Of a stretch of 44,366 bases of DNA, positions 6,959 through 42,947 are shown piece by piece; the stretch's first letter is position 1, and the number at the start of each line of letters is the position of its first letter. Origin of the DNA: a virus. Under the pieces are notes generated by a model, which saw nothing but the letters and a program-made list of their open reading frames with translations, searched no databases and was not told the DNA's origin. The stretch covers positions 1 to 44,366 of the IMG/VR virus record IMGVR_UViG_3300010397_000059. One strand, 5' to 3'. A program made the translations under genes and the position numbers.

Positions 6959-6960
6959 GA

Positions 6961-7691: not shown

Positions 7692-7704
7692 TTGTATACT
7701 CCTT

Positions 7705-7944: not shown

Positions 7945-8051
7945 TGCGTGACCGCCGCGTAGATCTGCGAGGCGCCGAAGCCGACTAAGCAGATCGACGC
8001 GCATATCGCGACGGTGTAGCCGAGGAACGCAAGCCAATCGTTTAGCTTCAT
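7941..8051 (-). CDS. 36-aa single-span membrane protein (holin-like candidate)
   Basis: MKLNDWLAFLGYTVAICASI starts a protein with one clear transmembrane segment (about residues 6-32) and almost no soluble part. It ends in an ATGA overlap with the next gene and starts 21 bases after the VR3 gene's stop. Its size, and its position two genes upstream of the SleB-type hydrolase, make a mini-holin or membrane-permeabilising partner plausible. A regulatory or leader role cannot be excluded. Confidence 0.6.
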   Translation of the reverse strand: MKLNDWLAFLGYTVAICASICLVGFGASQIYAAVTQ

Positions 8052-8072
8052 GGGAATGATCCAAAAGGCCAA

Positions 8073-8495
8073 TTACTGACGGGCACGCGCCGACCGAACG
8101 GAGCGCACGAGGCCCTCGTGGCTCTGGAGGTGGTAGTCGGAAAAGCCGCTGCCGAAGCCGACGTCCCACGCGTAGCCCGACGGCGACGAGGCGACCGGGG
8201 TGCTGGTCCAGCACCAGCCGCCTTTGGTCTTGAAGAAATCCGTGTCGATCGCCGGATCAAAGCGCGAATCGTCGACGAGCGTGAGCAGCTCCTTGCGCGT
8301 TGGCATGCGCCAATCGGTGAAGCCGGCGAGGTCGAGTTCCGCCGCCAGCTTAGGTGCTTTCGCGAAGGTCGCGTGCTTGGACAGCTCCGCGCGCGGCCAC
8401 ATGAGATCGGTTTCTGTATCGAGCACGGCAACCCATTCGGCTGCCTCGTGCGGAAGCTGTTCGCCAGTGCTGCTGATCTTGATGAAGCGGCTCAT
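8073..8495 (-). CDS. DGR variable protein 3 (DUF1566-like lectin fold)
   Basis: A 140-residue third target. The start at the ATG at 8495 is supported by AAAGGAG eight bases upstream and by an ATGA overlap with the preceding gene. DUF1566 signatures are TDLMWPRAEL, FTDWRMPTRKELLTLVDDS, FDPAIDTDFF and WCWTSTPVASSPSG, then the variable segment and LVRSVRSARARQ. Variable residues read V, G, D, G, G, S, F, H, L, S, H. It lacks a signal peptide. It is separated from the other two targets by the hydrolase block, so the DGR acts on targets up to 3 kb from the TR. Confidence 0.92.
   Translation of the reverse strand: MSRFIKISSTGEQLPHEAAEWVAVLDTETDLMWPRAELSKHATFAKAPKLAAELDLAGFTDWRMPTRKELLTLVDDSRFDPAIDTDFFKTKGGWCWTSTPVASSPSGYAWDVGFGSGFSDYHLQSHEGLVRSVRSARARQ
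8079..8200 (-). repeat. DGR variable repeat 3 (VR3)
   Basis: A 122-base copy of the TR with 15 substitutions, all at TR adenines, including the first adenine of the repeat (GAC to GTC). It is followed by CAGTAA and AATTGGCCTTTTGG. It is the most diverged of the three VRs. Confidence 0.97.
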
Positions 8496-8707
8496 GGTGT
8501 GACTCCTTTGCGCCACAGACGATCCTCGGCCGCGCGGCGCGCAAGTTCAGCCGTCGCGAAATGCTCGAGGCGCGAGCCGTGGTTGTTTTCGGTGGCGAGC
8601 GCGGCATACGTGCCGCAGTCGTGAACGGTGACGAGCTCGCCGCAGCCATGCGTGGCGCAGAACTGCAGGCCGTCCATGTCGGGGTCTGTCCATAGGTATG
8701 CGCTCAT
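8492..8707 (-). CDS. Hypothetical protein, 71 aa
   Basis: Starts at the ATG at 8707, overlapping the pilin stop (ATGA), and ends in an ATGA overlap with variable protein 3. It thus links the pilin and a DGR target in one coupled unit. It begins [17 protein letters not shown] and contains [15 protein letters not shown] (three Cys, two His), perhaps a small metal site, then a charged helix. No family was recognised. Confidence 0.65.
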
Positions 8708-9135
8708 GGACGGCAGCCAGTGGGCAGGTACTTGAGCGCGATCGTGCTGCTCGAGCACGTCCAGACCACCGATCCGGCATCGGGCGCGAACGTCGGCGAT
8801 AAGGACAATGTCTGTCCGACAACCGCTTCGTTGACCTGGTTGCCGTATTTGACGGTGATCACGCCGTCGACCACGTCAAGCTCGGTCACGAACTTGCCGG
8901 TGATGCTGGTGGGTGCTGCGAGCCCGGCGATCGTGTTATCAGCGGGCGGAGTGCCGGTATGGCTGTAGACGTCAGCGACGGCCGTCTTGGCGCCATCGGC
9001 AATAACGATGCCTTCGGACACCTGGGAGCGGATGACGTAGTCCTGGTAGGCGGGGATGGCGATAGCGGCCAGGACGGCGATGATCGCGACCACGATCATC
9101 AGTTCGATCAGGGTGAAGCCGGTGGCACGTTTCAT
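8704..9135 (-). CDS. Type IV major pilin (PilA-like)
   Basis: A complete 143-residue type IVa pilin. A short leader MKRATG precedes the prepilin peptidase site [19 protein letters not shown] with the invariant Glu5, the N-terminal alpha helix [16 protein letters not shown], a beta-rich globular domain, and a C-terminal disulfide loop between Cys of VVWTCSS and Cys of LPTGCRP. It would be inserted in the inner membrane, processed by the host PilD and assembled into host pili. No pilus assembly genes are nearby, so it depends on the host. A pilin in a phage is unusual; many phages use type IV pili as receptors. Confidence 0.93.
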
Positions 9136-9173
9136 TTTCTGCCCTCTTGGTCCGGAATGGACTGGGGGCGAGA

Positions 9174-9201
9174 GGATTACACATGGTGTTTATAAAGTCA
9201 A
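9174..9201 (-). promoter_or_regulatory. Possible sigma70 promoter for the pilin-DGR operon
   Basis: Minus strand: TTGACT (9196-9201), 16 bases, then TAATCC (9174-9179), about 40 bases before the pilin ATG. The -35 is good and the -10 weak. No sigma54 pilin-type promoter is visible. This would let pilin, the variable proteins and perhaps the DGR be expressed apart from the repressor transcript. Confidence 0.3.
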
Positions 9202-9267
9202 CAGTGAGTTTAACGCCGCGTGTACAATGATGCGCGCACGGGTGATCTGGCCCGGAGGAGCACGGGC

Positions 9268-9513
9268 ATGGCGACGAAGGCAGAAATTGAGTGCTCTGGG
9301 CCGAGTGCTGGCTCAGCCACGCAGCTGGACGATTCAGATCAGCGAAAACACGAATGCGACCGAACGGGTAAGCGCTTGATCGAGCATGGCGCAGTAATCA
9401 TTTTGAAGCATCGCGTTGCGCCTTTTGCTGATCGCATTGCCGCAATGCCTCGCGCATGGCCTTTTCTGATTCCGTGCGGAGATTGGCGTTCTGCTGTTCT
9501 TTGGTGGCGATGA
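9268..9513 (+). CDS. Possible small plus-strand ORF, 81 aa (doubtful)
   Basis: An ATG at 9268 follows an excellent ribosome-binding site (GGAGGAG, spacing 7) and, 40 bases upstream, a TACAAT box at 9223-9228. The first half (MATKAEIECSGPSAGSATQL) lies in the pilin-DUF4124 intergenic gap. The second half runs antisense through the 3' end of the DUF4124 gene. No domain is visible. The signals are better than the protein sequence. Confidence 0.3.
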   Translation: MATKAEIECSGPSAGSATQLDDSDQRKHECDRTGKRLIEHGAVIILKHRVAPFADRIAAMPRAWPFLIPCGDWRSAVLWWR

Positions 9514-9934
9514 CAGCACGTAGGCCAGCTGCGCGGGCTCGATCGGCCGCCTCCAACTGCTGAGAATTGGCGTTTTCTACGCCGGTGCGAACACTTACGT
9601 ACCGGGAACTTTCAAGGTCGCGAACCTGTGCCTTTAGGCTATTGATTTCGGACAAGTCCGGATCGTAGGCAAGTTTTTGCGCGTCACGGCGACATTGCGA
9701 ATCCGCGACGTTATCGGACATTGCCTTGAGTGGGTCGTTCTGTTGCGTCGATGGATGACCAGGTGCGCTTGATGCTGGTTTCGGAACATCCATAATCGCT
9801 TGCGCGTCTTTGCCACATTCTTGTTGGCTGAAGGTAACAACGCCGTTGACCGTGCATTTGTATACTTTCTGCGCATTCGCTGATCCACCCATGGCCATGC
9901 CGGCAAGCGCTACGCATGCAAATAACATTCGCAT
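9398..9934 (-). CDS. Periplasmic DUF4124-domain protein
   Basis: A 178-residue exported protein with a signal peptide (MRMLFACVALAGMAMGGSANA) and then a DUF4124 domain (QKVYKCTVNGVVTFSQQECG) at residues 22-45. The rest is a long charged helical region with Gln-rich coiled-coil character (ATKEQQNANLRTESEKAM). DUF4124 proteins are small periplasmic proteins common in beta- and gammaproteobacteria, with unclear function. It is part of the minus-strand cargo run between a small helical gene and the pilin. Confidence 0.8.
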   Translation of the reverse strand: MRMLFACVALAGMAMGGSANAQKVYKCTVNGVVTFSQQECGKDAQAIMDVPKPASSAPGHPSTQQNDPLKAMSDNVADSQCRRDAQKLAYDPDLSEINSLKAQVRDLESSRYVSVRTGVENANSQQLEAADRARAAGLRAVIATKEQQNANLRTESEKAMREALRQCDQQKAQRDASK

Positions 9935-9952
9935 AAAAGCCTCCCTGTTCGG

Positions 9953-10300
9953 TTAACGCGCTGGCGGCGCATCATCAGGATCGCACGCACATTGCACGCA
10001 CTCTTCGTAGTATTCCATGCGGTCGCGCAAAGTGAAAATGGCATCATCCGGCAAGTCATCAACATAGCTCGCCTTGTGGCGATCCAGCGTTCGAACTATT
10101 TCTGAATGCCATTGGCGCGAATGAATGATCTCGGAGATGCGTCGCAATGCTCGCGCGCGCTCGGTTTGCTCGATCTCTGGGAATGGCTTGGCAGGCGGCG
10201 GCCTGCATTGTTGCGGATCGACTTCAATTTTTCGCGGCGGCATATTTGCCGCGATCAAGTCCGTGAGCTGCTGGATGCGCTCTTCACGTAGATTCAACAT
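9953..10300 (-). CDS. Hypothetical protein, 115 aa
   Basis: The start at the ATG at 10300 (MLNLREERIQQLTDLIAANM) has GGAGAAA upstream. A start at 10321 lacks a site. Helical and charged, with a Pro-rich linker (CRPPPAKPFPEIEQ) and a C-terminal acidic CxC-containing tail (CVQCACDPDDAPP). It overlaps the 3' end of the repressor C-terminal frame by 17 bases. No family was recognised. Its place next to the repressor suggests co-expression in the lysogen. Confidence 0.65.
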   Translation of the reverse strand: MLNLREERIQQLTDLIAANMPPRKIEVDPQQCRPPPAKPFPEIEQTERARALRRISEIIHSRQWHSEIVRTLDRHKASYVDDLPDDAIFTLRDRMEYYEECVQCACDPDDAPPAR

Positions 10301-10568
10301 TCGATTTCTCCCTTTCTGCAAGATAGCGCCTGACCAATGAGATCAGATTTCCCTCATTGACCGTTTCTTTGGAGTCGGCTAGGAGGGAGTAGGCAAGCGC
10401 GATTTCACGCGGAGCTGGCTGGCGCTCGGGAACGTCTTCCATTTGGGCGACGCCGCTCAACACTTTCATCGCGTCGCGGAGAATGGATGGGTCCAATCTC
10501 GCCGCTTGAGACCCGCCAGCGACGACAATTGATCCCCCAGCGCCTTTGAGCTTCGAATGCGCCTTCAA
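10284..10568 (-). CDS. Repressor C-terminal frame (frameshifted part)
   Basis: A 94-codon frame lying +1 to, and overlapping, the HTH frame upstream. From SQAARLDPSILRDAMKVLSG to LISLVRRYLAEREKS it looks like the helical C-terminal part of short phage CI-like proteins, which in relatives is fused to the HTH. Its only start is a TTG without a ribosome-binding site. The simplest explanation is that it and the HTH frame are one gene separated by a one-base insertion. A five-base G run (coding strand, 10534-10538) is the likely spot. Confidence 0.55.
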   Translation of the reverse strand: MKAHSKLKGAGGSIVVAGGSQAARLDPSILRDAMKVLSGVAQMEDVPERQPAPREIALAYSLLADSKETVNEGNLISLVRRYLAEREKSNVEST

Positions 10569-10794
10569 ACGAGACCCCGCGCGTCCGCCAGTTACTTACG
10601 CGCGCAGTAGACCAGACAAATAGCTTACCCAAGTCCGTGGTGCCCATATCCAGACCCGGCTCGTTGAGAGCGATGGCTAATGCTTCCATCAGCCTATGGA
10701 AACTGGATGGGTCTGGGATCTTCTTGGTCACGCCCAATTGTCCGCGAACTAAACGCGCCGTTGTTACACTGGACGTTGACATTTCTTTAAACAT
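10405..10794 (-). CDS. CI-like repressor, HTH frame (apparently frameshifted)
   Basis: Starts at the ATG at 10794 or 10782. It contains a phage repressor HTH (residues ~55-95): TTDLGKLFVWSTARVSNWRT followed by RGVSFEGAFEAQRRWGIN. After this point the frame becomes Arg-rich nonsense, and the +1 frame continues with a plausible repressor tail. It lies divergent from the Cro-like gene, and its 5' end overlaps the cro promoter, so it probably binds there to keep the lytic operon off. If the shift is real, the phage may be clear-plaque or use another repressor; a homopolymer sequencing error is equally possible. Confidence 0.65.
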   Translation of the reverse strand: MFKEMSTSSVTTARLVRGQLGVTKKIPDPSSFHRLMEALAIALNEPGLDMGTTDLGKLFVWSTARVSNWRTRGVSFEGAFEAQRRWGINCRRWRVSSGEIGPIHSPRRDESVERRRPNGRRSRAPASSA

Positions 10795-10804
10795 GACGTG
10801 TAAT
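10776..10804 (+). promoter_or_regulatory. Early lytic promoter (PR-like) with candidate operator
   Basis: Plus strand: TTGACA (10776-10781), 17 bases, TGTAAT (10799-10804): a near-consensus sigma70 promoter. The start would fall about 3 bases before the cro ATG at 10814, making a nearly leaderless transcript. An imperfect palindrome ACATGACGTGT (10791-10801) overlaps the -10 and could be an operator. The repressor start codons also lie here. Confidence 0.6.
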
Positions 10805-11209
10805 TCGCGCCATATGAGCGCCAATCGCACGCCAGAACTTCACCCGCATGCCGAGCTTATCGATCGCTTGGGCGGCCCAAGCAAGCTTGCAGACGCGCTG
10901 GGATTCGAAGGTCCCGGTCGCGTGCAGCGAATCCAGAACTGGAAATATCGCGGCATCCCGGAAGTGATCTTCCTGCGCAACCCGCAGATTTTCGGCATCT
11001 GGGGCGAAGGCGATAAACGCGATGCGGAGGCGGCGTGAGATGTTCTCAGTGATGCGTGATCCTTTTTTCGGCTTGCGTTTGTGCTGCGACTTGTGCGCCG
11101 CGATTGTTTGCAGCATTTCCTGCCGCGTCACCTGCCGATATGCGAGCACCTCGTATATCACGTCGTTCTGCGCATCCTTGATCGATGTCTTGACAGTGGG
11201 CAGCTCCAT
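10787..11209 (-). CDS. Minus-strand ORF opposite cro, 140 aa (uncertain)
   Basis: Has a strong ribosome-binding site (GGAGG, spacing ~6) before the ATG at 11209 and a plausible N-terminus (MELPTVKTSIKDAQNDVIY, then a Lys-rich HKSQHKRKPKKG). From about residue 60 it runs antisense through cro and loses protein-like character. It may be a real small gene whose frame happens to stay open, expressed when cro is silent. No domain was recognised. Confidence 0.4.
   Translation of the reverse strand: MELPTVKTSIKDAQNDVIYEVLAYRQVTRQEMLQTIAAHKSQHKRKPKKGSRITENISRRLRIAFIAFAPDAENLRVAQEDHFRDAAIFPVLDSLHATGTFESQRVCKLAWAAQAIDKLGMRVKFWRAIGAHMARITRHV
10814..11038 (+). CDS. Cro-like HTH regulator
   Basis: A 74-residue protein divergent from the repressor. 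The HTH runs from IDRLGGPSKLADALGF to RVQRIQNWKYRGIPE, ending with a short tail (IFGIWGEGDKRDAEAA). This is the usual form of small Cro proteins encoded opposite CI in temperate phages, and it would repress repressor transcription after induction. The ATG at 10814 lies just after the predicted promoter without a leader. The stop is followed by the TGAGATG motif, repeated at 11307-11313 and after the AEAT-type end near 11690. Confidence 0.8.
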   Translation: MSANRTPELHPHAELIDRLGGPSKLADALGFEGPGRVQRIQNWKYRGIPEVIFLRNPQIFGIWGEGDKRDAEAA

Positions 11210-30185: not shown

Positions 30186-30665
30186 ATGACAGCAGCAACG
30201 CTACATAGATGGCTGGATTTCGACGCATCGGAAGGGACATTTACTTGGCGCGCTAGCCGGCCTGGCGTCGCGCTAGGCTCCATTGCTGGGTGCGTTGGTC
30301 GTAGCGCGCGGTACATGCAAATCCGCATTGACGGCGTCGCCTATATGGCGCATCGGCTGGCGTGGTTGCACTACTTCGGCGAATGGCCTGCTGGACCAAT
30401 CGACCACATAAATGGCAATCCGCGAGACAACAGAATTGCGAATTTAAGAGCGGTCGATGCACGCACAAATTCGCAAAATACGCGGCATGCGAACTCACGG
30501 AGCACAACCGGCCTTCTTGGCGTCGCTAGACATCGCAACAAGTTCAAGGCGGTAATTCGCGCAAATAATAAAAGTATACATATTGGCGTGTTTGAAACGC
30601 CTGAGTTGGCGCATTCTGCCTACATAGCGGCTAAGCGCCGTCTCCACTATGGATGCACACTTTAA
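30186..30665 (+). CDS. HNH homing endonuclease with AP2-like domain
   Basis: A 159-residue free-standing endonuclease. HNH_3 core: YMAHRLAWLHYFGEWP, then PIDHINGNPRDNRIANLRAV and NSQNTRHANS. The AP2-like DNA-binding end is TTGLLGVARHRNKFKAVI, IHIGVFETPELAHSAYIAAK. It starts at the ATG at 30186, 13 bases after the gpZ stop. The sequence is more AT-rich (for example around 30560-30590) than its neighbours, a sign of recent insertion. Its stop overlaps the tape-measure start (TAATG). Confidence 0.9.
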   Translation: MTAATLHRWLDFDASEGTFTWRASRPGVALGSIAGCVGRSARYMQIRIDGVAYMAHRLAWLHYFGEWPAGPIDHINGNPRDNRIANLRAVDARTNSQNTRHANSRSTTGLLGVARHRNKFKAVIRANNKSIHIGVFETPELAHSAYIAAKRRLHYGCTL

Positions 30666-33600
30666 TGGCTACTAGAGATGAGATAATTAAGTATCTCTTC
30701 GAAGCCCAGCAGATCGGCATCGATGAGGTCATCAAGCTGCTCGAGGGCACGAAGCAGAAATCCGAGGAAGCCGGCAACGCCTTCGAATTTCTGAAGAAGC
30801 ACATGGCGGAGATTGTCTCCGTCGCCGCGGCCGTCGAGATCGCATTCAAGGGCATCGAATTCGGCAAGGAATCGCTCAAGAACGCCGAGGACGTCGAAAG
30901 CTCACTCTCGCGCGTGCGTGCGCTCGCCGGCGATGCCGCGCAACAGTTTGGCGACATGCAAGAGGCGGTCGAGAAAGCTGCGCAGGCCGTTAACGTCACG
31001 TCGCAAACATCGGCCAGCGGCCTGGCTGCTCTAGTCAGCACCGGGCTGAGTGCGAAAAACGCGATCGACGCGCTGGTCCCGACGCTGCAGCTGGCAAAAA
31101 TCGCCAATATCGACATCGCCCAGGCGGCCGAACTCGTCGGCAAGCAGCTCGATGCATTTCATCTGCCGGCGAGCGATGCGCAGAAGGTCGTCGACGAGCT
31201 CACACAAGCCAGCCACGGCGCCTCCGGTGGCCTTGGTGCAATGTCCAGCGCTGCCGCGCAGCTGGCTCCGGACGCGAAAGCGCTCGGCTTGTCGTTCACG
31301 GATACGGTTTCGATTCTCGGCCTGCTCAGCAGCAAAGGGCTGGATGCCGAGAAATCCACGCGCGGTCTGCGCACCATTTTCCAAGAACTACAGGATCCGA
31401 CCAGCAAACTGCGTGGTGAGCTGGGAACCCTCGGTGATTATACCGGCGATTTCGACAAAGCAATCACGGCGCTCAACGGCAATACGCCGCGCGCGCACCA
31501 AGCGCTGCTGACGCTCAGCGGATCCTCGCGCACGCTCGTCGAGGTGCTTGGCCAGGCCGGCCCCGAAGCGCTGGCGAAGTTCAATGCCGGCCTGCAGCAG
31601 ACCGAAGGCGTCGCCGAACGCGCTGCGAAAATCCTCGACGACAACCTGAAAGGCGCGTCAACGCGTTTCGGCCTGGCGATCGAGCAGATCGGCGAGAAGC
31701 TGGCCCGGCCGGTACTTGAGCCGTTCAAGCAGGAATTGGAGAAGCTCGCCGAGAAGCTGAATGCGTTCGCTGATACGCCTAAGTTTAAGGAGATTGAGGC
31801 GAAGGTTGGTGAATTGGCCACGAAGGCTGCCGCTGCAATTGATAAGTTTATTAATAATTTCGACTGGGATGCGTTTCTTTCCGACGGAACGGATGCACTT
31901 GATGGTGTCAGCAAAGCTCTGACGGAGCTGGCCGATAATGCTACGGCCGCTGCCTCGGCAATCAATAAGACGTTCGAAGCAATCGGTGGCACCTATCATG
32001 CCGCTGCTGCTGTGGTTGATGGTGCCGTCGGACAGCTCGCCAAAGCCGGCGACGTCATCGTCGATATCGCGCAAAAAACCGATGCCGCATCGGAGGGTGC
32101 AGAAATTGCGGCGCGCAAGTTCGAAAAGCTGCATTCGGTATTCCAGTCTGTCGGTGGCGAGGCATCGGCTCAGGCTGCTGAACATATTGAGAAGCTCGGC
32201 GACGATCTGGGCGCTCTAGTCGACGCCACCGATAAGGCGGCGACAGCAACAAAGTCGCATGGCGATGCAGCTGCAGCAGCAACAAGCAAGATCACCGAGC
32301 AAGCCCAGGCCGCCGACAAATATGAGCAAGCCGAACAGCGCTTAGCGGACGCTGCTGCTGCTGTAGACAAGGCCGACGCCGCGCAAGCCGAATCAGCGCG
32401 ACACGCAGCGCAGGCGAACCAAGCATTCGCCGAAACTCTGCGTGTGGCTGCAGATTCGTCGAGGACCGCCACGGCGGACGTCGCTGCACTGAAGACGGCG
32501 TTCAGCGCATTGAAGATTTCCAGTCAGCAGGATTTGCAACAGGCAGCGACCGATGCGGCCTCGGCTTTTGCGGTGATCGATAAGAGTGCCGCAAATACAG
32601 CTGAGGGGCTCGCGGATCGGCAAAACGCATTTCTCGCCTACGCCAAGGCCGCGCTAGCGGCTTCCGCGCAGCTTGATGTCGGTGCACGGGCATCCATCCA
32701 GTACCAGCTTGACTCAAAGGCTTCCGTGCTCGGCGTTACGGAAGCGCTGGCAGATATGGAAAAACAGTCCGATGCCAGCGCAGCTGCTCTCACAAGCGAT
32801 GCCAATCGCGAGGCCGCATCTTTCGATCGCGCAAGAGAAGCTGCCGATCGTGCCGCCGCGGCGACACAGAGCGCGGGTAATGAAGCGCAATCGACCGGCG
32901 AAAAATACGATCGCTTCAAGGACAAGGGCGAGGAAGGTTTCGCGGATCTGACCCAAGCGATCGCGCGGACGCGTTCCGAATTCCTATCTATCTCGGATGC
33001 CGCCGCGAAATTTTACGATACCGTCCTCGATGCTTCGTTCAAGCTTGGGCACTCCGATGATGGTTCTGGTTTCGATCGCACCGCACGCGCAATTCAGCAG
33101 GCGGTAGAACAAACAACGCAGAAAATTGCCGATCAGCGGCAAGAGCTTAACAGCGAAATCGCCGGCATCGATCAGCTCGGCTTCAAAGCCGAGAGCAACT
33201 TCGGTGTGTTCCGCGGCAACGTCGAGCAGACGACGAAGCAGCTCGACAGCATGATCGCCTCGATTCAGGACGGCACCTACGATGCCGGCCTGCTCGGGCA
33301 GCAAGACCTCGGGCCGCTACTGCAGTCGCTGCAGGCTGCCAAGCAACGCATGGATGCGCTCAAGGCGGCCACCGAGCAGGCGAACCAGCAGCTCGCCGAC
33401 CTGAGCCAGCAGCTGCAGGACGAACGCGACCAGCAGACCGGCAACCAGACCGATATCGAAAACCGGCGTTACGAAAAGCAAGTGCAGCAGATCAAGGATC
33501 TGGCCGACAAGGCCGACGCCGCCGGCAAAGCGCAAGCGGAAAAAGACCTGCAGCTCGCCGAGCAGATCCATCAGAAAAAACTCAAGGACATTGCCGACGA

Positions 33601-33868
33601 AGCGAATGCGCGCAATGGCGGCGGTGGCGGTGGTGGTGGTGGCGGCGGCGGTTCGTCACCGGCGCCCTCTGGAGGTGGCGGAAGCAATCCGCGCGGCGGC
33701 GGCGGCGCGTCCGGCTCGGGTTCGGCCGTCGCCGGCGTGCCCGGCATCACGCATCACACGACGATCAACATCAACGGTCAACCGATAGATCTATATTCGG
33801 ATGGACCCAATGCAGACGCGCTACAGCAGTTCGTGCAGCAGGTCCGCTTCGTGAAGTCGCGCACATGA
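30665..33868 (+). CDS. Tape measure protein (TP901-type)
   Basis: A 1067-residue tail-length ruler, starting at 30665 (MATRDEIIKYLFEAQQIGID). Conserved core: NAEDVESSLSRVRALAGDAA, ASGLAALVSTGLSAKNAIDA, GLSFTDTVSILGLLSSKGLD and STRGLRTIFQELQDPTSKLR. Long Ala/Asp-rich helical repeats follow (~residues 450-800), then a Gln-rich coiled coil. A run of 11 Gly plus a Ser/Gly linker precedes a short beta end (THHTTININGQPIDLYSDG). At ~0.15 nm per residue the tail would be about 150-160 nm (inference). Confidence 0.92.
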   Translation: MATRDEIIKYLFEAQQIGIDEVIKLLEGTKQKSEEAGNAFEFLKKHMAEIVSVAAAVEIAFKGIEFGKESLKNAEDVESSLSRVRALAGDAAQQFGDMQEAVEKAAQAVNVTSQTSASGLAALVSTGLSAKNAIDALVPTLQLAKIANIDIAQAAELVGKQLDAFHLPASDAQKVVDELTQASHGASGGLGAMSSAAAQLAPDAKALGLSFTDTVSILGLLSSKGLDAEKSTRGLRTIFQELQDPTSKLRGELGTLGDYTGDFDKAITALNGNTPRAHQALLTLSGSSRTLVEVLGQAGPEALAKFNAGLQQTEGVAERAAKILDDNLKGASTRFGLAIEQIGEKLARPVLEPFKQELEKLAEKLNAFADTPKFKEIEAKVGELATKAAAAIDKFINNFDWDAFLSDGTDALDGVSKALTELADNATAAASAINKTFEAIGGTYHAAAAVVDGAVGQLAKAGDVIVDIAQKTDAASEGAEIAARKFEKLHSVFQSVGGEASAQAAEHIEKLGDDLGALVDATDKAATATKSHGDAAAAATSKITEQAQAADKYEQAEQRLADAAAAVDKADAAQAESARHAAQANQAFAETLRVAADSSRTATADVAALKTAFSALKISSQQDLQQAATDAASAFAVIDKSAANTAEGLADRQNAFLAYAKAALAASAQLDVGARASIQYQLDSKASVLGVTEALADMEKQSDASAAALTSDANREAASFDRAREAADRAAAATQSAGNEAQSTGEKYDRFKDKGEEGFADLTQAIARTRSEFLSISDAAAKFYDTVLDASFKLGHSDDGSGFDRTARAIQQAVEQTTQKIADQRQELNSEIAGIDQLGFKAESNFGVFRGNVEQTTKQLDSMIASIQDGTYDAGLLGQQDLGPLLQSLQAAKQRMDALKAATEQANQQLADLSQQLQDERDQQTGNQTDIENRRYEKQVQQIKDLADKADAAGKAQAEKDLQLAEQIHQKKLKDIADEANARNGGGGGGGGGGGGSSPAPSGGGGSNPRGGGGASGSGSAVAGVPGITHHTTININGQPIDLYSDGPNADALQQFVQQVRFVKSRT

Positions 33869-34278
33869 TCACTCTCGTCACGACCAGCGGGACCATCAAC
33901 CTGCCAGGCGATCTCGTCTGGCAGGACAAATACAAATGGTCGCCGGTGAATACGGCAGCGTCCGTCACGCTCGGCGGCGCGCTGATCGTCGAAAAGTCGA
34001 CGCAGCTCGCCGGCCGGCCGATCACGCTGGGTGGAATTTCCAACTCCGCATTTGTCACTGCCGCGCAGCTGGATGAACTGCGCGCGGCCGAGATCGCACA
34101 GGGCGATACGCCCATGACGCTAACGCTGCACGACGGTAGCTCGTTCACGGTGCTGTTCTATGGCACTGGCAATCAGCCAGCCATTGACGGCACGCAGGTT
34201 TACCCGCGCGCCGGTGCCAATTCCACAGAGCGCGATGCCTTGCCGCATTGGCTCACCCTTCGCTTTATCGAGGTCTGA
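33865..34278 (+). CDS. Tail protein, 137 aa
   Basis: Overlaps the tape-measure stop by 4 bases. All-beta sequence: MITLVTTSGTINLPGDLVWQ, VTLGGALIVEKSTQLAGRPI, MTLTLHDGSSFTVLFYGTG, ending in LPHWLTLRFIEV. Small size and place after the tape measure suggest a distal-tail or tip adaptor. No named family can be assigned with confidence. Confidence 0.65.
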   Translation: MITLVTTSGTINLPGDLVWQDKYKWSPVNTAASVTLGGALIVEKSTQLAGRPITLGGISNSAFVTAAQLDELRAAEIAQGDTPMTLTLHDGSSFTVLFYGTGNQPAIDGTQVYPRAGANSTERDALPHWLTLRFIEV

Positions 34279-34283
34279 TCACC

Positions 34284-37200
34284 ATGGCGGACGTCAAACT
34301 CCTTGCATCGCAACGCCTGACCGACAACCCCGATGGCGGCGGCCTGATGACCTCGACCGAGATCGTCGACGGCGTCGTCAACAACCTGTGGCCGGACATC
34401 TCGCGCGTCGATCGCGCGTATGGCGTGGTGAATCTGCGCAAGCTATTCGTCAAGGCTGACACAGCCGATACGGCAATTTATTCCGGACTGCACATCATCT
34501 GCCTTTTCCCGCCGCAGGATCCGCGCGTCACGGTGACGATGTTCAGCACGAACAATTGGACGGACGTGCGCGATGATGCGCGCAGCGCGGTGGAGCGCTA
34601 CCTCGATGAGTCCGTTCCTACGCGGATGATTCCATTCGATCGGCAGCTCGAAGGCCAGCGGACGATTCTGGTGTTTCAACGCCCTGAGCTGGATCTGCCG
34701 AACATCGGCGAGGTCTATGTCATTTCCGATCAGCCGAACGAAAACAATCCGCAGTTCGTTCGCATCATCGGTCTAACGCAATCCGTGCAGACGTTTACGG
34801 ACTTGTTGAACGGGCCGCCGGTGGATTTCCAGGCGCGTGTGATTACCCTGCAGCTCAGCGAGCCGCTCAAGTATACATTTCAAGGATCGCAGCCATCGCG
34901 CCTTTTCACGGCGCAGAGCAATACGAGCAACATTCGCAAGACGATCGTCTCAGATGCGGCCAATTACCACACCGTTCACACGCTGACGAACGATGCCGCT
35001 ATTGGCGATCTGACCATCGACCTGGGCTCCGTGTTTGCCCAGCTCGTGCCGGCGTCAACCTCAGAATCGGCGATTCTGGATGCGCCGCCTGGGCAGACCG
35101 TGGTTGTCGTGGCCGCCGCGACGGCACCGGTCACTTTCCTTTCCGACGTGTTTCTGTTTGGCACGATCTTTACCAGCCGCGCCATCGTGCCCGGCAGTTT
35201 GGTGGTTACGCAGGCGGGAACAACCTACTACCTCGACAATGGCGCCGGCGTCATCATTCGCGGTTCGTCGCTCACGTCGACGATCGTGGCTGGCAGCGTG
35301 GATTACGCGACAGGCCAATTGGTGTTCGATGGCAGCGTCACCAACATCGCCGGCGCCAGCATCACCTATATCCCGGCTGCGGCGGTCAGCAAGGTTTCGC
35401 AAACCTTCCAGCAACCGGTCACGCAAAGCACGCGCGGCTTCGTTTATGCGGCGACGCTGCATCCGATCCCGATCCCGCAAACGCTATCCGTCAGTTATCG
35501 CGCGCTCGGAAAATGGTACACGCTCGCCGACGACGGCAGTGGAGCCATCCTCGGCGATATCGGTATCGGCACCGGCTCGATCAATTTCGCCACGGGCACC
35601 GATTCGGTGTCGCTGGGCGCACTGCCGGATATTGGCAGCAGCCTCATCTACAGCTGGGGCGGCGGATCGGAATTCGAGATCAAGGTGGGCGATGTAACGA
35701 TCGGCACGCCCGTTGTCAACGGAGTACTCACGGGCGGCAACGTCAAACCGAGCTCGTTGACGGTTACCTGGTATGCCGGGGCTGTACTGAAAACGGCAAG
35801 CGATGACGGCAGCGGCGGCTTTACTGGCGACGCAACCGGTCGCGTGATTTATGGCAGCGGCGAGGTTTCCATCAAGCCGACCCTGCTGCCGGATCCAACT
35901 ACGGCATTCAGCTTCGCCTATCAGAAAGCCACGGCCGTTCATACCGAGCTGTTCAACCCGAGCATTTCCGGCTCCACGATCACGACGACGGTCGCGCATG
36001 CGCCGGTGCGCCAGAAGTCGATTCTGATCACGTTCCAGCAATCGTTTCTCAACTATTTCGGCAAGCTCTACAACATCGCCGTGCAACTGATCGATGACGG
36101 CGCCGGCGGCTTGACTTACCTCGATGGCACTGCGCTATCTGGCTCAACGGTGGACTACACAACTGGCGCGATCGAGTTTGCGCCGAACGGCACAATCAAA
36201 GTGCCGACGATCACCTATAGCCAGTTCGACAATGCCGCTCCGCGGCGTAGCGTCGATCCGTCCACCGGTTATTACTCGCCATCGGCCCGCGCCGGTTTGT
36301 GGCCGACACAGGTGTCGCCATACGACCACGTGTCCAGTTTCGTCGACGGTTCCAATGTCACGATTGCTTACAAAGAGGACGGCGCGACGGATTCGGCCGC
36401 GACCTATTCATTGGCCACGCCGGCGCTGTCAATCGATTTGACGCCAACCGTCGCCAGCAACATCGTCCCGGGTGGCGTCATGTTCACGCTGGGCGGCCGC
36501 ACATATATCGATCGCGCCGGATCGCTGTATTACGCGGTCAATCCATCGACCAATGCCGGCACGCTGGGTGGCAGCATCGATTACGCAAGCGGTGCCGCCA
36601 ACGTCACGCACTGGGTGGGCGGCACGAGCAGCGCGCTCACGCTCAACGCGCTGCTCACACAAGTCGATCGCATGCCGATGTTCGTGCTCAATGGGCGTGT
36701 GCCTGGCTCTCCGCTGCGGCCCGCCTCGTTCTATATCCAAGCCAACAAGCTCGACGGCACGCTCATCAGCGCTACGGCCGACGTCGACGGCAAGATCGCG
36801 ACGGCGGACATGCACGGCTATGTCGATGTCCAAACTGGCGTGTATAGCGTCGTGTTCGGCCGCTATGTACTGGATTCCTCGCTGACCGTCGACGACAAGG
36901 CGCAGGATTGGTATGACCCTGCGAACGTCGATGCGGACGGTTATTACCTAGTGCCCGATCCGGTCGAGCCCAGCTCGATCACGTACAACGCCGTCGTTCA
37001 AGTCTCGTTGCCGCTCGACAGCACGATTCTCGGCATTGATCCGGTGCGTCTGCCGCTCGATGGGCGAGTCCAGGCCGTGCGCAATGGCTACATGCTGATC
37101 CTGCACGACACGCAGGTCTACACGATGCCGAGCGGGCTAACAGCCGGCCAAGTCGTGACGCTGCCGCGCGATGCCCTGGCGCTCGTGGAAGTGCGCGACA

Positions 37201-37949
37201 GCAGCTCCACGCCGCTGGTCGTGCCCGGCCAGGTCGCTGGCGGCCCTGTCGTCACCGGAGCAAAGTTCACTGTCGATCTCGCCGCCGGCACGATCACGAT
37301 GGCCACGCCGCTGGATCTGACCGCGTTCACCGAACCGCTGGTGGCGACGCACCGCATCGAAGACGCTTCCGTCGTCACCGATGTACAGATCACCGGCCAG
37401 GTGACGATTGCCGACGCGCTGACGCATGGTTATACGGCCAGCAATAGCTATGCGAGTACCGCACTGATCGCGCCGTTCGTGGGCGGTAGCGTGCAAGCCG
37501 CCTATACCCATCTGTTCAGTCAGCAAACCTGGGACAACGCGCACCCGAATTGGACGGACGCGATCGTCGGCAATCCGACCACGGCCGCCGTCGATGATCT
37601 GAACTATCCCATTCAAGTGCTAAATCGCGATGCGATCACGGAAAACTGGGCGTTCATCGTCAAAGGCGGCGGAACGCATGTGGATGTAGTTGGCCAACAT
37701 CTGGGCGTGGTTTTGGTCAACGCCAGCATGGCCAGCAATATCGAGCCGATCAACCCTGGCACTGGTAATCCGTACTTCCTGTTTGATTACCGCGCGTTCG
37801 GCGCCGGTGGCTGGAATGACGGTAACGCGATCCGCTTCGATACGCAGGGTGCCGGCATGTCGGTCTGGCTCGCGCGCACCGTCAAGAGCGGGCCGGCCAG
37901 CTTCACGGATGATTTCGATGTGATCGAACCGCGCTGGGATAAGAGCTAA
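34284..37949 (+). CDS. Large tail protein with beta-hairpin repeats, 1221 aa
   Basis: The start at 34284 (MADVKLLASQRLTDNPDGGG) follows the previous stop by 5 bases. The N-terminal ~250 residues look like a tail-tip domain (VNLRKLFVKADTADTAIYSG, FDRQLEGQRTILVFQRPEL). The rest is beta-rich with a recurring motif: GSVDYATGQLVF, GSINFATGTDSV, GRVIYGSGEVSI, STVDYTTGAIEF, GSIDYASGAANV, GYVDVQTGVYSV, each following a strand and a Gly/Asp turn. The C-terminus has an unrelated globular part (ENWAFIVKGGGTHVDVVGQH). Probably a central tail spike or baseplate component. Confidence 0.75.
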   Translation: MADVKLLASQRLTDNPDGGGLMTSTEIVDGVVNNLWPDISRVDRAYGVVNLRKLFVKADTADTAIYSGLHIICLFPPQDPRVTVTMFSTNNWTDVRDDARSAVERYLDESVPTRMIPFDRQLEGQRTILVFQRPELDLPNIGEVYVISDQPNENNPQFVRIIGLTQSVQTFTDLLNGPPVDFQARVITLQLSEPLKYTFQGSQPSRLFTAQSNTSNIRKTIVSDAANYHTVHTLTNDAAIGDLTIDLGSVFAQLVPASTSESAILDAPPGQTVVVVAAATAPVTFLSDVFLFGTIFTSRAIVPGSLVVTQAGTTYYLDNGAGVIIRGSSLTSTIVAGSVDYATGQLVFDGSVTNIAGASITYIPAAAVSKVSQTFQQPVTQSTRGFVYAATLHPIPIPQTLSVSYRALGKWYTLADDGSGAILGDIGIGTGSINFATGTDSVSLGALPDIGSSLIYSWGGGSEFEIKVGDVTIGTPVVNGVLTGGNVKPSSLTVTWYAGAVLKTASDDGSGGFTGDATGRVIYGSGEVSIKPTLLPDPTTAFSFAYQKATAVHTELFNPSISGSTITTTVAHAPVRQKSILITFQQSFLNYFGKLYNIAVQLIDDGAGGLTYLDGTALSGSTVDYTTGAIEFAPNGTIKVPTITYSQFDNAAPRRSVDPSTGYYSPSARAGLWPTQVSPYDHVSSFVDGSNVTIAYKEDGATDSAATYSLATPALSIDLTPTVASNIVPGGVMFTLGGRTYIDRAGSLYYAVNPSTNAGTLGGSIDYASGAANVTHWVGGTSSALTLNALLTQVDRMPMFVLNGRVPGSPLRPASFYIQANKLDGTLISATADVDGKIATADMHGYVDVQTGVYSVVFGRYVLDSSLTVDDKAQDWYDPANVDADGYYLVPDPVEPSSITYNAVVQVSLPLDSTILGIDPVRLPLDGRVQAVRNGYMLILHDTQVYTMPSGLTAGQVVTLPRDALALVEVRDSSSTPLVVPGQVAGGPVVTGAKFTVDLAAGTITMATPLDLTAFTEPLVATHRIEDASVVTDVQITGQVTIADALTHGYTASNSYASTALIAPFVGGSVQAAYTHLFSQQTWDNAHPNWTDAIVGNPTTAAVDDLNYPIQVLNRDAITENWAFIVKGGGTHVDVVGQHLGVVLVNASMASNIEPINPGTGNPYFLFDYRAFGAGGWNDGNAIRFDTQGAGMSVWLARTVKSGPASFTDDFDVIEPRWDKS

Positions 37950-37952
37950 GCC

Positions 37953-38873
37953 ATGCCCGGCACGAACTTTCCAGCCTCGCTCGATACATCGACCGATCTG
38001 CCGGCGATCGCTTCGACCGATCAGGAAAACACGCCTGGCAAAGAGCATCATTTTGTCACGACGAACGTCAACGCTGCGGTGCTCGCTCTCGAAACGAAGC
38101 TCGGCGCTGACAGCAGCGCCGACACAGCATCGGTCGATTACAAGCTCGCCGATGCGCGCTCGCGCCTAACGACAGCAGAGAGCGCGATCGCAACGAAGGC
38201 TGATCTTGTCTCTGGCAAGGTGCCGAGCAGCCAGCTGCCGAGCTACGTCGATGACGTCCTGGAGTACGCCAATTTCGCCGCGCTGCCAGCCACCGGCGAA
38301 ACCGGCAAGATCTATGTCACGCTCGACGATAACGCTGAATATCGCTGGTCGGGCAGTACCTATATCCAGCTTGTCGCGTCACCGGGCACGACAGATGCGG
38401 TGCCGGAAGGATCGACGAACCTGTATTTCACCGCGGCGCGCGTGCTTGCCGTCGTGCTCACCGGGTTGTCGACGGCTACGAATGCCGCGATCACCGCGAC
38501 GGATACAGTACTGAGCGCACTCGGCAAGCTGCAGAAGCAGATCACCGATCTGATCGCCACAGTCAACGGCAAGGTGGATCAGTCCATTACGGTCAATGGC
38601 CATGCCCTCTCGAGCAATGTGACGCTAACAACGGCCGACGTCGCCGATGGTACGAACAAGCGTTACGTCACCGACGCGGAGCTCGCGGTTCTCGCGGCGA
38701 CATCGGGCACGAATACCGGCGATCAGACGAACATTACCGGCAACGCTGCCACGGCAACCGCCTTGCAGACCGCTCGGAACATCAACGGGCAACTGTTCGA
38801 TGGAACAGCCGATATCACGATCCCTACAGGCGGCGGTGGCTCTGGCGGCTCGATCTCAGTTTATTTCGCGTGA
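37953..38873 (+). CDS. Tail fibre protein, 306 aa
   Basis: N-terminal segment with TPGKEHHFVTTNVNAAVLAL, a helical stalk, and fibre-type repeats: VPEGSTNLYFTAARVLAVVL, SITVNGHALSSNVTLTTADV, GTNKRYVTDAEL and TGNAATATALQTARNINGQL then FDGTADITIP, which are common shaft motifs in phage fibres. A Gly-rich end closes it. It carries no DGR variable repeat. Confidence 0.85.
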   Translation: MPGTNFPASLDTSTDLPAIASTDQENTPGKEHHFVTTNVNAAVLALETKLGADSSADTASVDYKLADARSRLTTAESAIATKADLVSGKVPSSQLPSYVDDVLEYANFAALPATGETGKIYVTLDDNAEYRWSGSTYIQLVASPGTTDAVPEGSTNLYFTAARVLAVVLTGLSTATNAAITATDTVLSALGKLQKQITDLIATVNGKVDQSITVNGHALSSNVTLTTADVADGTNKRYVTDAELAVLAATSGTNTGDQTNITGNAATATALQTARNINGQLFDGTADITIPTGGGGSGGSISVYFA

Positions 38874-38881
38874 GGTGACAA

Positions 38882-39079
38882 ATGAGAACTTTATACATTC
38901 CCTTTTGGTACAAGTCCGGCGACGTGCGCGGCGAATGCTTCCAGAAAATCCGCGTAGACGATGACGGCAAGCATTCGCTGATCGGCTACGTGGATGGGGC
39001 CGATAAGCCATTCATGCTGCCGGAGCCGCATGAAGGCGTGCTCATCAATCCGCGCAACCCGATGGAAACGTTGCCGTGA
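38882..39079 (+). CDS. Hypothetical protein, 65 aa
   Basis: MRTLYIPFWYKSGDVRGECF opens a small soluble protein ending LINPRNPMETLP. It lies between the fibre gene and the next tail gene, and its stop overlaps the latter's GTG. It could be a fibre chaperone or tip component; nothing diagnostic is visible. Confidence 0.6.
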   Translation: MRTLYIPFWYKSGDVRGECFQKIRVDDDGKHSLIGYVDGADKPFMLPEPHEGVLINPRNPMETLP

Positions 39080-39525
39080 GCAATAACACGTCGCAGATTT
39101 TCAGCCTGCGCCCAAAATGGAACTGGTGCGCATTGACTGCGGCCAATACGGCGATGGACGGCACCGGCACTGTCGGAACCTTGTTCACTGCGACGAGCAC
39201 GAGCGGCGTCGACAGTCGCATCGAACGCATTCGTTGTATGGCGCAAGGGACTAACGTCGCCAGCGTCGCGCGGGTTTTCGTGAACAACGGCAGCTCGAAC
39301 GCGACAGCATCGAACAATTCGTTGATCACTGAAATCGCGTTGCCTGCAACATCGGCAAGCAATAGCGCGCCGGTAAATCCGACCTTGATTGAGCTCCCCA
39401 GTGCTGCGGATCTCAATGCATTGTTCCCGAACGGTCTGCCGAACGGCTACAAAATCAATATCTGTCTCGGCACAGCAGTTAGTGCCGGGTGGCAATTCAC
39501 GGGCCTTGGCGCGGACTACGGCTGA
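39076..39525 (+). CDS. Tail-associated protein, 149 aa
   Basis: GTG start in a 4-base overlap. A beta-rich protein (WNWCALTAANTAMDGTGTVG, LFTATSTSGVDSRIERIRC, ARVFVNNGSSNATASNN, LITEIALPATSASNSAPVNP) resembling small virion proteins of tail-fibre clusters. It has no signal peptide. It ends in a TGATG overlap with the SPRY-like gene. Confidence 0.65.
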   Translation: MSNNTSQIFSLRPKWNWCALTAANTAMDGTGTVGTLFTATSTSGVDSRIERIRCMAQGTNVASVARVFVNNGSSNATASNNSLITEIALPATSASNSAPVNPTLIELPSAADLNALFPNGLPNGYKINICLGTAVSAGWQFTGLGADYG

Positions 39526-40463
39526 TGAAACTCGTCAGTGACATGGGTGGCTTTCCGCGAACCGGAGTGCCTATTATCGTGGATCGCGCGGGCTACCCGG
39601 TTAACCGCGATGCGCCACTGCTGTTTCCGAGATCGGACATCAATCTCATCGCGACTGGCGGTGAAACGCGCATCGCTTTTGCTTATGCACCTTACGGCGG
39701 CGTCGCCACCGTCTATAAAAACGGCGTTCCGCTCGGGCCGCGCGATTGCGTTATATCTGGCCGCGCCGGCGTGTTTGCGATCGCGCTTTCCGCGCTCGAC
39801 ATCATTGATGTCAGTTATTGCACGGCCGAAACGTCCTTGCCAGCGGCCTCTACGCTCACTGGCAATAGGTTGTTTGCAACGTGGAATCCGGCGGACTCAA
39901 GCGCGAACGAGACGTTGACCAATGGGAATTTGACGGCCACCGATTCGAACAATTCTACGTGGAGCGCGTGCCGAACGACGTTGTCGAAAACGTCCGGTAA
40001 ATGGTACGTGGAATTCACCTTGACGGCGCTTACGACGTCGGGCACTACCGTTTCTGGCGGAGTCGGTTTTGGCGATGCTTCCATGGCGCTGGGTAATTAC
40101 TTGGGCAGCGATGTCCACGGATTTTCGGAATTTCTGCACGACGGTGGCGGCACGACCAATAAATACAACAATGGATCCGGAGCCGCGCTTTCGTTCGGTT
40201 CGCAGTCGGCGGGAGCCAAGGGCAAGCTTGCGATCGATGTGGATGCCGGCAAGCTATGGTTTGGCTTAGTCGGGACAGGATGGAACGGCTCAGGGGATCC
40301 GGTGATTGGCGCGAGCCCAGATTACACGTTCACTGCAGGCACAGCGATGTATGTGGCTTGCAGCAATATCCACCAGTCATCGATCACGCTCAATAGTGGC
40401 GGCAGCGCTTTTGGCGATGCAGTGCCGGCCGGCTTCTCTGCGGGATTTTATGCAGATTCATGA
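39525..40463 (+). CDS. Tail protein with SPRY-like domain, 312 aa
   Basis: Starts at 39525 (MKLVSDMGGFPRTGVPII). The first ~120 residues are a beta-rich attachment domain. The second part shows a SPRY/concanavalin-like pattern: SGKWYVEFTLTALTT, VSGGVGFGDASMALGNYL, GKLAIDVDAGKLWFGLVG and GDPVIGASPDYTF. SPRY-type domains bind proteins or sugars and are recurrent in phage tails. It is a good candidate receptor-contact protein. Confidence 0.75.
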   Translation: MKLVSDMGGFPRTGVPIIVDRAGYPVNRDAPLLFPRSDINLIATGGETRIAFAYAPYGGVATVYKNGVPLGPRDCVISGRAGVFAIALSALDIIDVSYCTAETSLPAASTLTGNRLFATWNPADSSANETLTNGNLTATDSNNSTWSACRTTLSKTSGKWYVEFTLTALTTSGTTVSGGVGFGDASMALGNYLGSDVHGFSEFLHDGGGTTNKYNNGSGAALSFGSQSAGAKGKLAIDVDAGKLWFGLVGTGWNGSGDPVIGASPDYTFTAGTAMYVACSNIHQSSITLNSGGSAFGDAVPAGFSAGFYADS

Positions 40464-42337
40464 GCGCGTACACCAAGCCAGCGCCATATACCAAACCGCA
40501 GACCTATGACGGCGGTGAAACCGCGCTTCCCATCGTTGCGCCGAACAATCTCGGCAGCACCGGGCTGCGCTGGCTCGATGCCGATGATCATTTCGCGCGC
40601 ACCGAATTCGACTGGCAGCAGGCGCAAGCCTCGAACGTGCCGATCGCAGCACCGTGGGAACGGCTCGATGCATTCTCGCGCTCGCTGTCGCAGGCGTGGC
40701 AGCAGGCAAATCAGTTCGGCTTCGATGCGGGATTACCTTGGAGCAAGCCAGGCGCTTTTGCCGCGGCGTTGTCGGCGCCCTGGCTGCAAGCCAACCCGTT
40801 TGATCGTGCTGCGGCCATGCCATGGGCGCAATTCCGCCAGCGTCTGGCCACGCAAACCGGCCTGCCATGGATCACGCCCGACGCGCACGGTTTCGCCGCA
40901 GCGCTGCCCTGGGCGACGCTGGCAGCCTACTCAGCGAGCAAGTCGCTGCTGTGGAAGCGCCTGGGCGAGCTCGGCGCGCATATCGCGTTGCCGTGGGGTA
41001 CTGGCAGCAACTACCAGACCGGCTATCGCAATCCCTTCGTCAATCCGCCCGACGACGGCAGCTCGCTCGTCTTCCCCGACCTTCCGGTGTACATCATGAT
41101 TCCGACCATTACGGCTGTTGTCACTGCCGGCGGTGCCGACTTGGACCCTCTCGCGCTCACAGTCGACGAGGACGTTGACTCGTTCTGTGCAAGCTTTGAG
41201 ATGCAGATCCCGGGCGTCGCATTACCGCTGATCGATCCAGGCGCATCCGGTCCGACCCCGATCAGCGTCACGATGAACGGGTATCCGTGGTCATTGCAGG
41301 TCGAAAGCTATACCGACAACCGCAAGTTCGGCGCCCGTGGATTCACCGTGCGCGGCCGCGGCTTGTCGGCCGCTTTCGCCGATGCGCCGGCGCGCACGCT
41401 ATTGCAGGCCGACGACTACAACGCCGCGCAACTCGCACAGCACGAAGTCGATCCGACCGGCTGGACCGTGATATGGGACGCCGTAGACTGGCTCGTGCCT
41501 GGTGGCACATTCAGTTACAACGACCTCGCGCCGATCGCTGCTATCCAGCAGCTGGCGAGCGCCGTCGGTGCGGTCGTGCTCACGGATCCGGACGCGCTCA
41601 CTATTCGGGTCGAGCCACGCTACCCGAATAAGCCGTGGGAGTGGGGCGGTGCAACGCCCTACGCTATCGTGCCGGCAGCGTTGCTCGATGCGGTGAGCGG
41701 TGATTGGCGCGGCGGCGCGAATCCGAACGGCATCTATGTTTACCCGAAGAACGCGACCAGCGGCGCATTCGTGCGCATCACTGGCAGCGCAGGCGATGTG
41801 CAGCTGCCGATGGTCGTCGAAACCATTCTGACCGACTCCGGAGCGCAAGCCGCACGCGGCATCTCGGAGCTGGCCAAGGCAGGCAAGACCAAGCGCGAGC
41901 AGATCACACTGCCGTTGCTGCCGGCGCCGGCGACGCCGGGGCTTATTCCGTTGCAGTCGCTGCTGCTCGCGATCGACGAGTATCCGCACGCACCGTTTAC
42001 CATCACGACGGCGGATTTCACGATCGCCGCAGTCGACGTGACGCAGTCGGTGCATGTCACTTCCGCCGCCTCGTTCGCGATCGATGACTATGTATTGATC
42101 ACCGCGCCTGGTCAGAAGTTGTTCGGGCAGATAACGGCGATCGCCGGGACAACGATCACCATCAAAACGGCGGCCATTTTTGCCGGTACGGCCGGCGATA
42201 CGATCGCAACCGATGCGTTCTTCACAAAGGCCAAAGCATGGAAAGGACAGGTGATGGCCAGGCAGATCACCGGCACGCGCAGCGGTGGCGCGCTCAGCGT
42301 GCGGCAGATCCTCACGGTCGAGAGGCAATTCCGGTGA
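40460..42337 (+). CDS. Baseplate hub-like tail protein with 14-residue Trp repeat
   Basis: A 625-residue protein. Residues 38-179 hold eleven tryptophans at 38, 52, 66, 80, 94, 108, 122, 137, 151, 165 and 179, i.e. every 14 residues with one 15-step, several as PW and often with Phe/Tyr six residues on. From ~residue 210 a hub/late-control-like region begins: YIMIPTITAVVTAGG, DVDSFCASFEMQIPG, VTMNGYPWSLQVESYTDNRK, FTVRGRGLSAAFADAPARTL, and later beta domains. It is probably part of the tail tip. Confidence 0.78.
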   Translation: MSAYTKPAPYTKPQTYDGGETALPIVAPNNLGSTGLRWLDADDHFARTEFDWQQAQASNVPIAAPWERLDAFSRSLSQAWQQANQFGFDAGLPWSKPGAFAAALSAPWLQANPFDRAAAMPWAQFRQRLATQTGLPWITPDAHGFAAALPWATLAAYSASKSLLWKRLGELGAHIALPWGTGSNYQTGYRNPFVNPPDDGSSLVFPDLPVYIMIPTITAVVTAGGADLDPLALTVDEDVDSFCASFEMQIPGVALPLIDPGASGPTPISVTMNGYPWSLQVESYTDNRKFGARGFTVRGRGLSAAFADAPARTLLQADDYNAAQLAQHEVDPTGWTVIWDAVDWLVPGGTFSYNDLAPIAAIQQLASAVGAVVLTDPDALTIRVEPRYPNKPWEWGGATPYAIVPAALLDAVSGDWRGGANPNGIYVYPKNATSGAFVRITGSAGDVQLPMVVETILTDSGAQAARGISELAKAGKTKREQITLPLLPAPATPGLIPLQSLLLAIDEYPHAPFTITTADFTIAAVDVTQSVHVTSAASFAIDDYVLITAPGQKLFGQITAIAGTTITIKTAAIFAGTAGDTIATDAFFTKAKAWKGQVMARQITGTRSGGALSVRQILTVERQFR

Positions 42338-42716: not shown

Positions 42717-42947
42717 ATGTTCAATGCCTGGAAAGACTTCCTTGACCAACTGCCCAAGGCGCCGATCCTGGTCGCCCAAGTGATCGAGCACCGCGCCGAC
42801 GGCCTCACCAGCATCGTCCAGTTCCCGAACGGCAGCCAGGCTGTAGCGCAAGGGCAGGGTGTAGCCGAGAGTAGTTATGCATTCGTCCGATCTGGTGAGA
42901 TCATCGGAGAAGCGCCGGCGATCACGCCGGTAACGATTTTCGTCTGA
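42717..42947 (+). CDS. Hypothetical protein, 76 aa
   Basis: MFNAWKDFLDQLPKAPILVA then VIEHRADGLTSIVQFPNGSQ. A small beta-rich protein three bases after the previous stop, ending VTIFV. The pattern VxxHxxDGxSxVxFPxG recurs in small phage tail-cluster proteins of unknown role. Confidence 0.65.
   Translation: MFNAWKDFLDQLPKAPILVAQVIEHRADGLTSIVQFPNGSQAVAQGQGVAESSYAFVRSGEIIGEAPAITPVTIFV

Follow-up and report, generated by a model that had tools for sequence, protein, structure and literature searches.

The window, a stretch of 44,366 nucleotides that covers the IMG/VR virus record IMGVR_UViG_3300010397_000059, contains a gene for a tail hub protein with eleven tryptophan residues at almost constant distances in its N-terminal part. 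What maintains these distances, what kind of structure do they specify, and is the same arrangement known from other phage proteins? The features considered are the following.

40460..42337, plus strand: tail hub protein with an N-terminal tryptophan array (open reading frame; phrog_6079, E = 7.6e-86)
40460..40570, plus strand: leader, residues 1-37, before the array, lacking the LNLG-type strand motif of most relatives
40571..40996, plus strand: array of eleven tryptophans, residues 38-179, in units of 14 residues (one of 15)
40997..41083, plus strand: linker between the array and the hub fold, residues 180-208 (pLDDT below 50 to residue 208, except residue 199; hub alignments begin at about 209)
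41084..42334, plus strand: hub fold of the gp44/gp27 kind, residues 209-625 (pLDDT above 85 for most residues that are not in the insertion; VIA matches)
41978..42232, plus strand: insertion of about 85 residues in the hub, residues 507-591, limits approximate (alignments of relatives; low-to-middling pLDDT)
42717..42947, plus strand: gene of 76 amino acids, phrog_5076 (E = 2e-17)
34248..37949, plus strand: tail protein of 1233 amino acids (phrog_6128), whose gene is conserved in relatives and precedes their variable part
30653..33868, plus strand: tape measure protein (PhageMin_Tail), an open reading frame separate from the array
37953..40463, plus strand: fibre-like and other open reading frames (306, 65, 149 and 324 amino acids) between phrog_6128 and the hub

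The array and the hub that carries it

The open reading frame starts with ATG and encodes 625 amino acids, the stop codon being included in its coordinates. The tryptophans occupy residues 38, 52, 66, 80, 94, 108, 122, 137, 151, 165 and 179, with successive gaps of 14, 14, 14, 14, 14, 14, 15, 14, 14 and 14. The first codon begins at 40571 and the last one is 40994-40996, which are the limits of the array given in an earlier, sequence-only reading. That reading had counted eleven tryptophans with a step of 14 and one of 15, and this is exact, nine of the ten gaps being 14 and one 15. It had also noted that several of them occur as PW; by direct reading, proline immediately precedes tryptophan in seven of the eleven units. 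The aromatic residue that it had often seen at position +6 is a feature of the window (phenylalanine or tyrosine in 6 of 11 units), but not of the family, where this position is mostly leucine, valine or isoleucine.

The spacing in the window is not due to chance or to recent duplication of DNA. When the order of residues 1-185 was randomised 100,000 times, at most five gaps of 14 were obtained, compared to nine observed. The mean pairwise identity of the units is 21% for protein and 38% for DNA, and fresh tandem duplication was rejected on these values. The units of L226, L019 and L036 (relatives are denoted by locus numbers) resemble each other more than those of the window do, and thus local homogenisation occurs in a few relatives.

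A search with the PHROGs profiles assigned the protein to phrog_6079, annotated as 'tail protein', with the best stretch at residues 202-535. The family includes gp21 of Stenotrophomonas phage S1 and its relatives; S1-like members also match the N-terminal part of the profile. The listing gives the name 'tail protein' only, and no repeat is named. The AlphaFold2 model of the window protein, built from 54 aligned sequences, is confident in the C-terminal part, pLDDT being mostly above 85 outside the insertion. In Foldseek and VIA-align comparisons, residues from about 209 to 625 match tail hubs of Neisseria (3d37), Mu (9ki1, 1wru), Milano (8fqc), 7-7-1 (9rku) and T4 (1k28). The VIA Z scores are 22.9 for Mu 9ki1_G, 23.9 for Milano 8fqc_C1, and 17.9 for T4 1k28_D; many solved hub entries score 17-24, and the hubs of Milano, 7-7-1 and Mu 23-24. 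The sequence profile of the hub matches 1wru/9ki1 with E = 0.0032. Residues 209-625 are a tail hub of the gp44/gp27 type; the sequence-only reading had called the protein a tail hub protein. The fold search bears on this fold and not on the array, which is of low confidence in both AlphaFold2 models considered here.

The fold of residues 209-625 is common to the hubs of Mu (gp44, or gpP) and T4 (gp27), but the matching hubs of this kind have no counterpart of the first 208 residues. In most of the solved hub chains, the aligned part begins close to the start of the chain and at about residue 209 of the window protein, and thus the array is an added N-terminal domain.

The insertion at residues 507-591 (approximate limits) has no counterpart in the aligned relatives and is modelled with low confidence; it is possibly a separate inserted domain. 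In the tail module of the window, the tape measure gene is followed by the phrog_6128 gene and then by the hub gene. The phrog_5076 gene is also found just 3' of the hub in all four annotated relatives tested (S1, ACPWH, vB_Pae_U8, Vibrio 1.050), which suggests a tip partner. In the window another open reading frame separates it from the hub, and phrog_5076 has no assigned function. The locus L204 of Extensimonas vulgaris (6638-11185) apparently contains a tandem pair of hub genes, of which the first bears the array. In L023 and L061 the hub reading frame is broken or shortened (421 and 381 amino acids in the matched frame), either by a frameshift or by an assembly error.

Spacing and unit number in relatives

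A search of phage records produced 31 matching genomes, mostly through the hub part. In the 13 of them that were inspected, the N-termini often had the same spacing, sometimes with tyrosine or phenylalanine replacing tryptophan (e.g. Acidovorax phage ACPWH). Scans of IMG/VR and of genomes extended the set to loci numbered up to L237. The closest matches in the genome scan, at 41-45% identity, were in Luteimonas and another member of Lysobacteraceae, and the hosts were mostly Gram-negative Beta- and Gammaproteobacteria. Two alignments were made, which held 54 and 52 of the available proteins; L021, L023, L033 and L061 were left out of them as cut or broken reading frames.

For the analysis of spacing, nine of the 221 loci L017-L237 were set aside (short or open N-terminus), identical sequences were merged, leaving 181, and these were clustered together with the window. 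The resulting 95 N-terminal clusters have representatives less than 50% identical to each other. Pairs of tryptophans at lag 14 occur 403 times, compared to 40.2 in shuffled sequences (z = 60), and pairs at lag 15 occur 132 times, compared to 39.9 (z = 14.5). The counts at lags 28/29 and 42/43 are also high, whereas lags 13 and 16 are depleted. In the 63 clusters outside the S1-like group, lag 14 is observed 182 times, compared to 17.7 expected (z = 36.9). The spacing of 14/15 between aromatic residues exceeds that in shuffles (p<0.05) in 75 of the 95 representatives and fails to do so in the other 20. The sequence-only reading had asked whether the repeat occurs in other phages and whether its spacing is conserved in homologues; both are the case.

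The unit number and the gap pattern were considered in 69 of the 95 representatives, those with at least five tryptophans in a chain. Exactly 11 units are present in 39 of the 69 arrays, and 10-12 units in 46. Outside the S1-like group, 11 units is the mode as well (11 of 37), the number of units varying between 5 and 13; this is a tryptophan-only count, which shortens arrays ending in other aromatic residues. Gaps of 15 residues favour every second gap (51 compared to 19.9 expected overall; 11 compared to 5.7 outside the S1-like group, P = 0.002). Such alternation would be as for a strand-turn-strand pair of approximately 29 residues. The same unit index in different proteins is clearly more alike than other indices only inside the S1-like group.

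Motifs of the LNLG/LVFG type are found on both sides of the array in 48 of the 69 representatives: before the array in 55, compared to 13.8 in shuffled sequences, and after it in 54, compared to 7.1. Strand motifs of this type flank the array in L028, L034, L059, and most S1-like N-termini. They may pair together and close the domain. The window and its nearest relatives have neither of the two motifs.

Some arrays, in L019, L020 and L072, have an additional tryptophan four residues N-terminal to the regular one, the gaps being 10 and 4. If the units are strands, it would lie on the same strand face.

Possible occurrence of arrays in other proteins was considered and rejected. A scan of all frames of the window and of all loci (at least five tryptophans, steps of 14/15) produced 170 matches. 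Besides that of the window, nine were outside the listed hub reading frames, in L204 and eight unlisted loci. The array reading frame of L204 is at the original hub match, and the other eight are each at the coordinates of their own hub gene. The tryptophan-rich query L071 retrieved only Acidovorax hubs from the phage records.

Variability of the array

Comparison of four segments in 48 of the 52 S1-like loci gave the lowest mean conservation for the array (0.30), followed by the fibre (0.39), the small gene (0.45), and the hub fold (0.74). Among 16 S1-like proteins, there are pairs whose hubs are 95-99% identical, whereas their arrays are mostly about 28-38% identical and share the 11 tryptophan columns. 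The exceptions are L041 and L064 (array 60% identical) and three close pairs (over 90%). Across 52 S1-like proteins, the tryptophan columns of the array have an entropy of 0.10 bit, compared to 2.69 in its other columns and 0.81 in the hub. A clear pattern of column covariation within the array was not found in these 52 sequences.

The DNA identity of L034 to L041 and to L038 is lost approximately 45 codons into the neighbouring gene and regained at the end of the array. Synonymous change in such pairs is near saturation in the array, compared to approximately 0.14-0.17 in the hub. In our reading of these comparisons, the arrays may be old alleles exchanged by recombination. In the phrog_9600 gene of S1-like loci (L034 5539-6510, L041 5504-6526), the first 45 residues or so are kept, and the rest is divergent. 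Such a pattern resembles that of a fibre whose anchor is fixed and whose tip is exchangeable.

Positive selection on the array was considered but not seen. In related pairs, dN/dS by a simple method is about 0.24 in the N-terminus and 0.043 in the hub, the former value corresponding to relaxed or weak purifying constraint. Since this is not positive selection, the variability of the array need not mean diversification of receptors.

Structure and possible role of the array

The sequence-only reading had suggested a repeated alpha-hairpin or a solenoid, and the relatives speak against it. Hydrophobic residues concentrate at positions -8, -4, -2, 0, +3 and +6 relative to tryptophan. In the nine residues before each tryptophan (587 segments), hydrophobic power at period 2.0 exceeds that in shuffles (z = 8.0), whereas there is none at period 3.6 (z = -1.1), and a helical solenoid is not supported. 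In the AlphaFold2 model of L034, based on 52 aligned sequences, most of the array has one strand per unit, mostly of 6-10 residues, with pLDDT of about 40-51. In the model of the window protein, which is confident for the hub fold, no fold is drawn for the array: pLDDT is about 24-37, strands are absent, and the short helices at 123-129 and 151-156, two in number, have meaningless confidence. AlphaFold2 thus fixes no fold. Beta strands are supported but not proven; judged from the hydrophobic pattern and the model of L034, the units are likely, though not established, to be strands and not helices.

The array has no assignment to a known repeat family, in agreement with the initial impression. 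At E<=1, Pfam contains no match to the window array, and four relatives have two chance-level matches below the cut-off. The 54 full family proteins have two weak single-member matches in Pfam, a remote relation to known repeats being possible, and none in NCBIfam. Regularly spaced tryptophans in a phage tail protein are known from tape measure proteins, where Trp/Phe repeats have period 11 or 11-11-18 and a variable number tied to tail length (Belcaid 2011, PMC3271669). Unlike these, the array has a period of 14/15, usually 11 units, and is located in the hub, the tape measure protein being a separate reading frame. Neither period 11 nor 11-11-18 is found in it, and lags 11 and 18 are not enriched in the arrays of relatives (L023 left out). 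No paper on a 14/15-residue tryptophan repeat was found in the open-access literature searched. The hub is of a known kind, and the tryptophan array is a conserved repeat, undescribed within the limits of that search.

Our preferred explanation, held tentatively and at somewhat below an even chance, is as follows. The hub of a siphophage-like tail would have an extra domain of approximately 150 residues before the canonical hub fold, consisting of eleven units of 14-15 residues. Each unit would consist of a short, amphipathic beta strand, with the tryptophan at its end or close to it, and a turn after the strand. The tryptophan side chains would form a buried lattice, and since this lattice would be nearly the sole sequence requirement, the exposed residues could drift or be exchanged almost freely. 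We infer such a tryptophan-held scaffold, tolerant to change elsewhere, and it is probably placed at the tail tip. The three arrays of the hub trimer would together make up a module of beta structure at the tip. This module would be directed towards the cell surface and act in surface contact or in opening of the tip.

The orientation towards the membrane side is suggested by analogy, as the tail tip is built by the hub, and a comparable hub has its N-terminus at the bottom of the cup. A tip-exposed, surface-contacting role may be proposed with modest confidence. Lining of the tail tip or contact with a membrane, both raised in the sequence-only reading, are possible, as the position of hub N-termini would allow them. 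A likeness is the hub trimer of JBD30, gp53, from a siphophage of a Gram-negative host (PMC11445458). However, gp53 consists of seven pb3-type domains and may differ from the window hub in the placement of the N-terminus; the word 'tryptophan' is absent from the main text of that paper.

A stronger version, which we consider possible but rather doubtful, is that the array represents a class of beta repeat that is new. A fold of eleven units would be set almost wholly by one tryptophan per 14-15 residues, and the tip module would have a surface rewritable wholesale with the fold and the unit number fixed. If the tryptophan lattice is indeed all that the array needs for folding, the scaffold is permissive to an unusual degree and well suited to studying the minimal sequence that determines a fold; should a structure reveal a beta repeat of a new kind, the standing of the array as new should rise. 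The array also marks a fast-changing part of the tail tip, distinct from the annotated fibre genes and maybe overlooked in studies of receptors and host range. It is carried by phages and prophages of Stenotrophomonas, Pseudomonas, Acidovorax, Comamonas, and their relatives.

The main rival, which we regard as unlikely but worth serious consideration, is an extended chain of tryptophan anchors. Such a chain would have little fold of its own and run along a partner, each tryptophan entering a pocket at a fixed distance. Conservation of tryptophan alone and the unfolded window array in AlphaFold2 are as it would predict, the usually fixed unit number would fit a partner of fixed size, and the regularly spaced Trp/Phe of tape measure proteins are described as anchors for small auxiliary proteins (PMC3271669). 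However, neither the amphipathic alternation in the nine or so residues that precede each tryptophan nor the 15-residue gap at every second unit is expected of a bare chain, and the residues adjacent to tryptophan vary even where phrog_6128 is 75-90% identical.

The same alternation could instead belong to a membrane-active amphipathic beta module, the three arrays entering the outer membrane at DNA ejection to form a barrel or belt, with tryptophans at the lipid interface. The genome-scan hosts, mostly Gram-negative, and the composition of the family arrays (arginine 11.9%, compared to 7.2% in the hub; tryptophan 7.1%; mean net charge +6.8 per 100 residues) are consistent with this. But the net charge of the window array is zero, the units are short for membrane-spanning strands, and, with -2 and 0 set aside, the even positions of the S1-like alignment are just 38-59% hydrophobic. 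The alternation is present, but neither AlphaFold2 prediction is confident for the array. We consider this module improbable.

Slightly less probable still is a docking platform for the adjacent variable fibre or receptor-binding protein, which in S1-like phages is phrog_9600, the two changing in concert. The array and the fibre are both in the variable stretch between the conserved phrog_6128 gene and the conserved hub fold. However, their identities are uncorrelated over 48 S1-like loci (Spearman 0.05, Mantel p 0.22), whereas the fibre and the adjoining small gene do track each other (0.43, p 0.002). Between L053 and L083, the identity is 77% for the fibre and 43% for the array.

Finally, a low-constraint linker with the tryptophan spacing as an inherited relic would suit the dN/dS of the N-terminus, approximately six times that of the hub fold, but is very improbable, as the tryptophan columns are nearly invariant with the remainder near saturation, and the spacing is retained in families of unrelated sequence.
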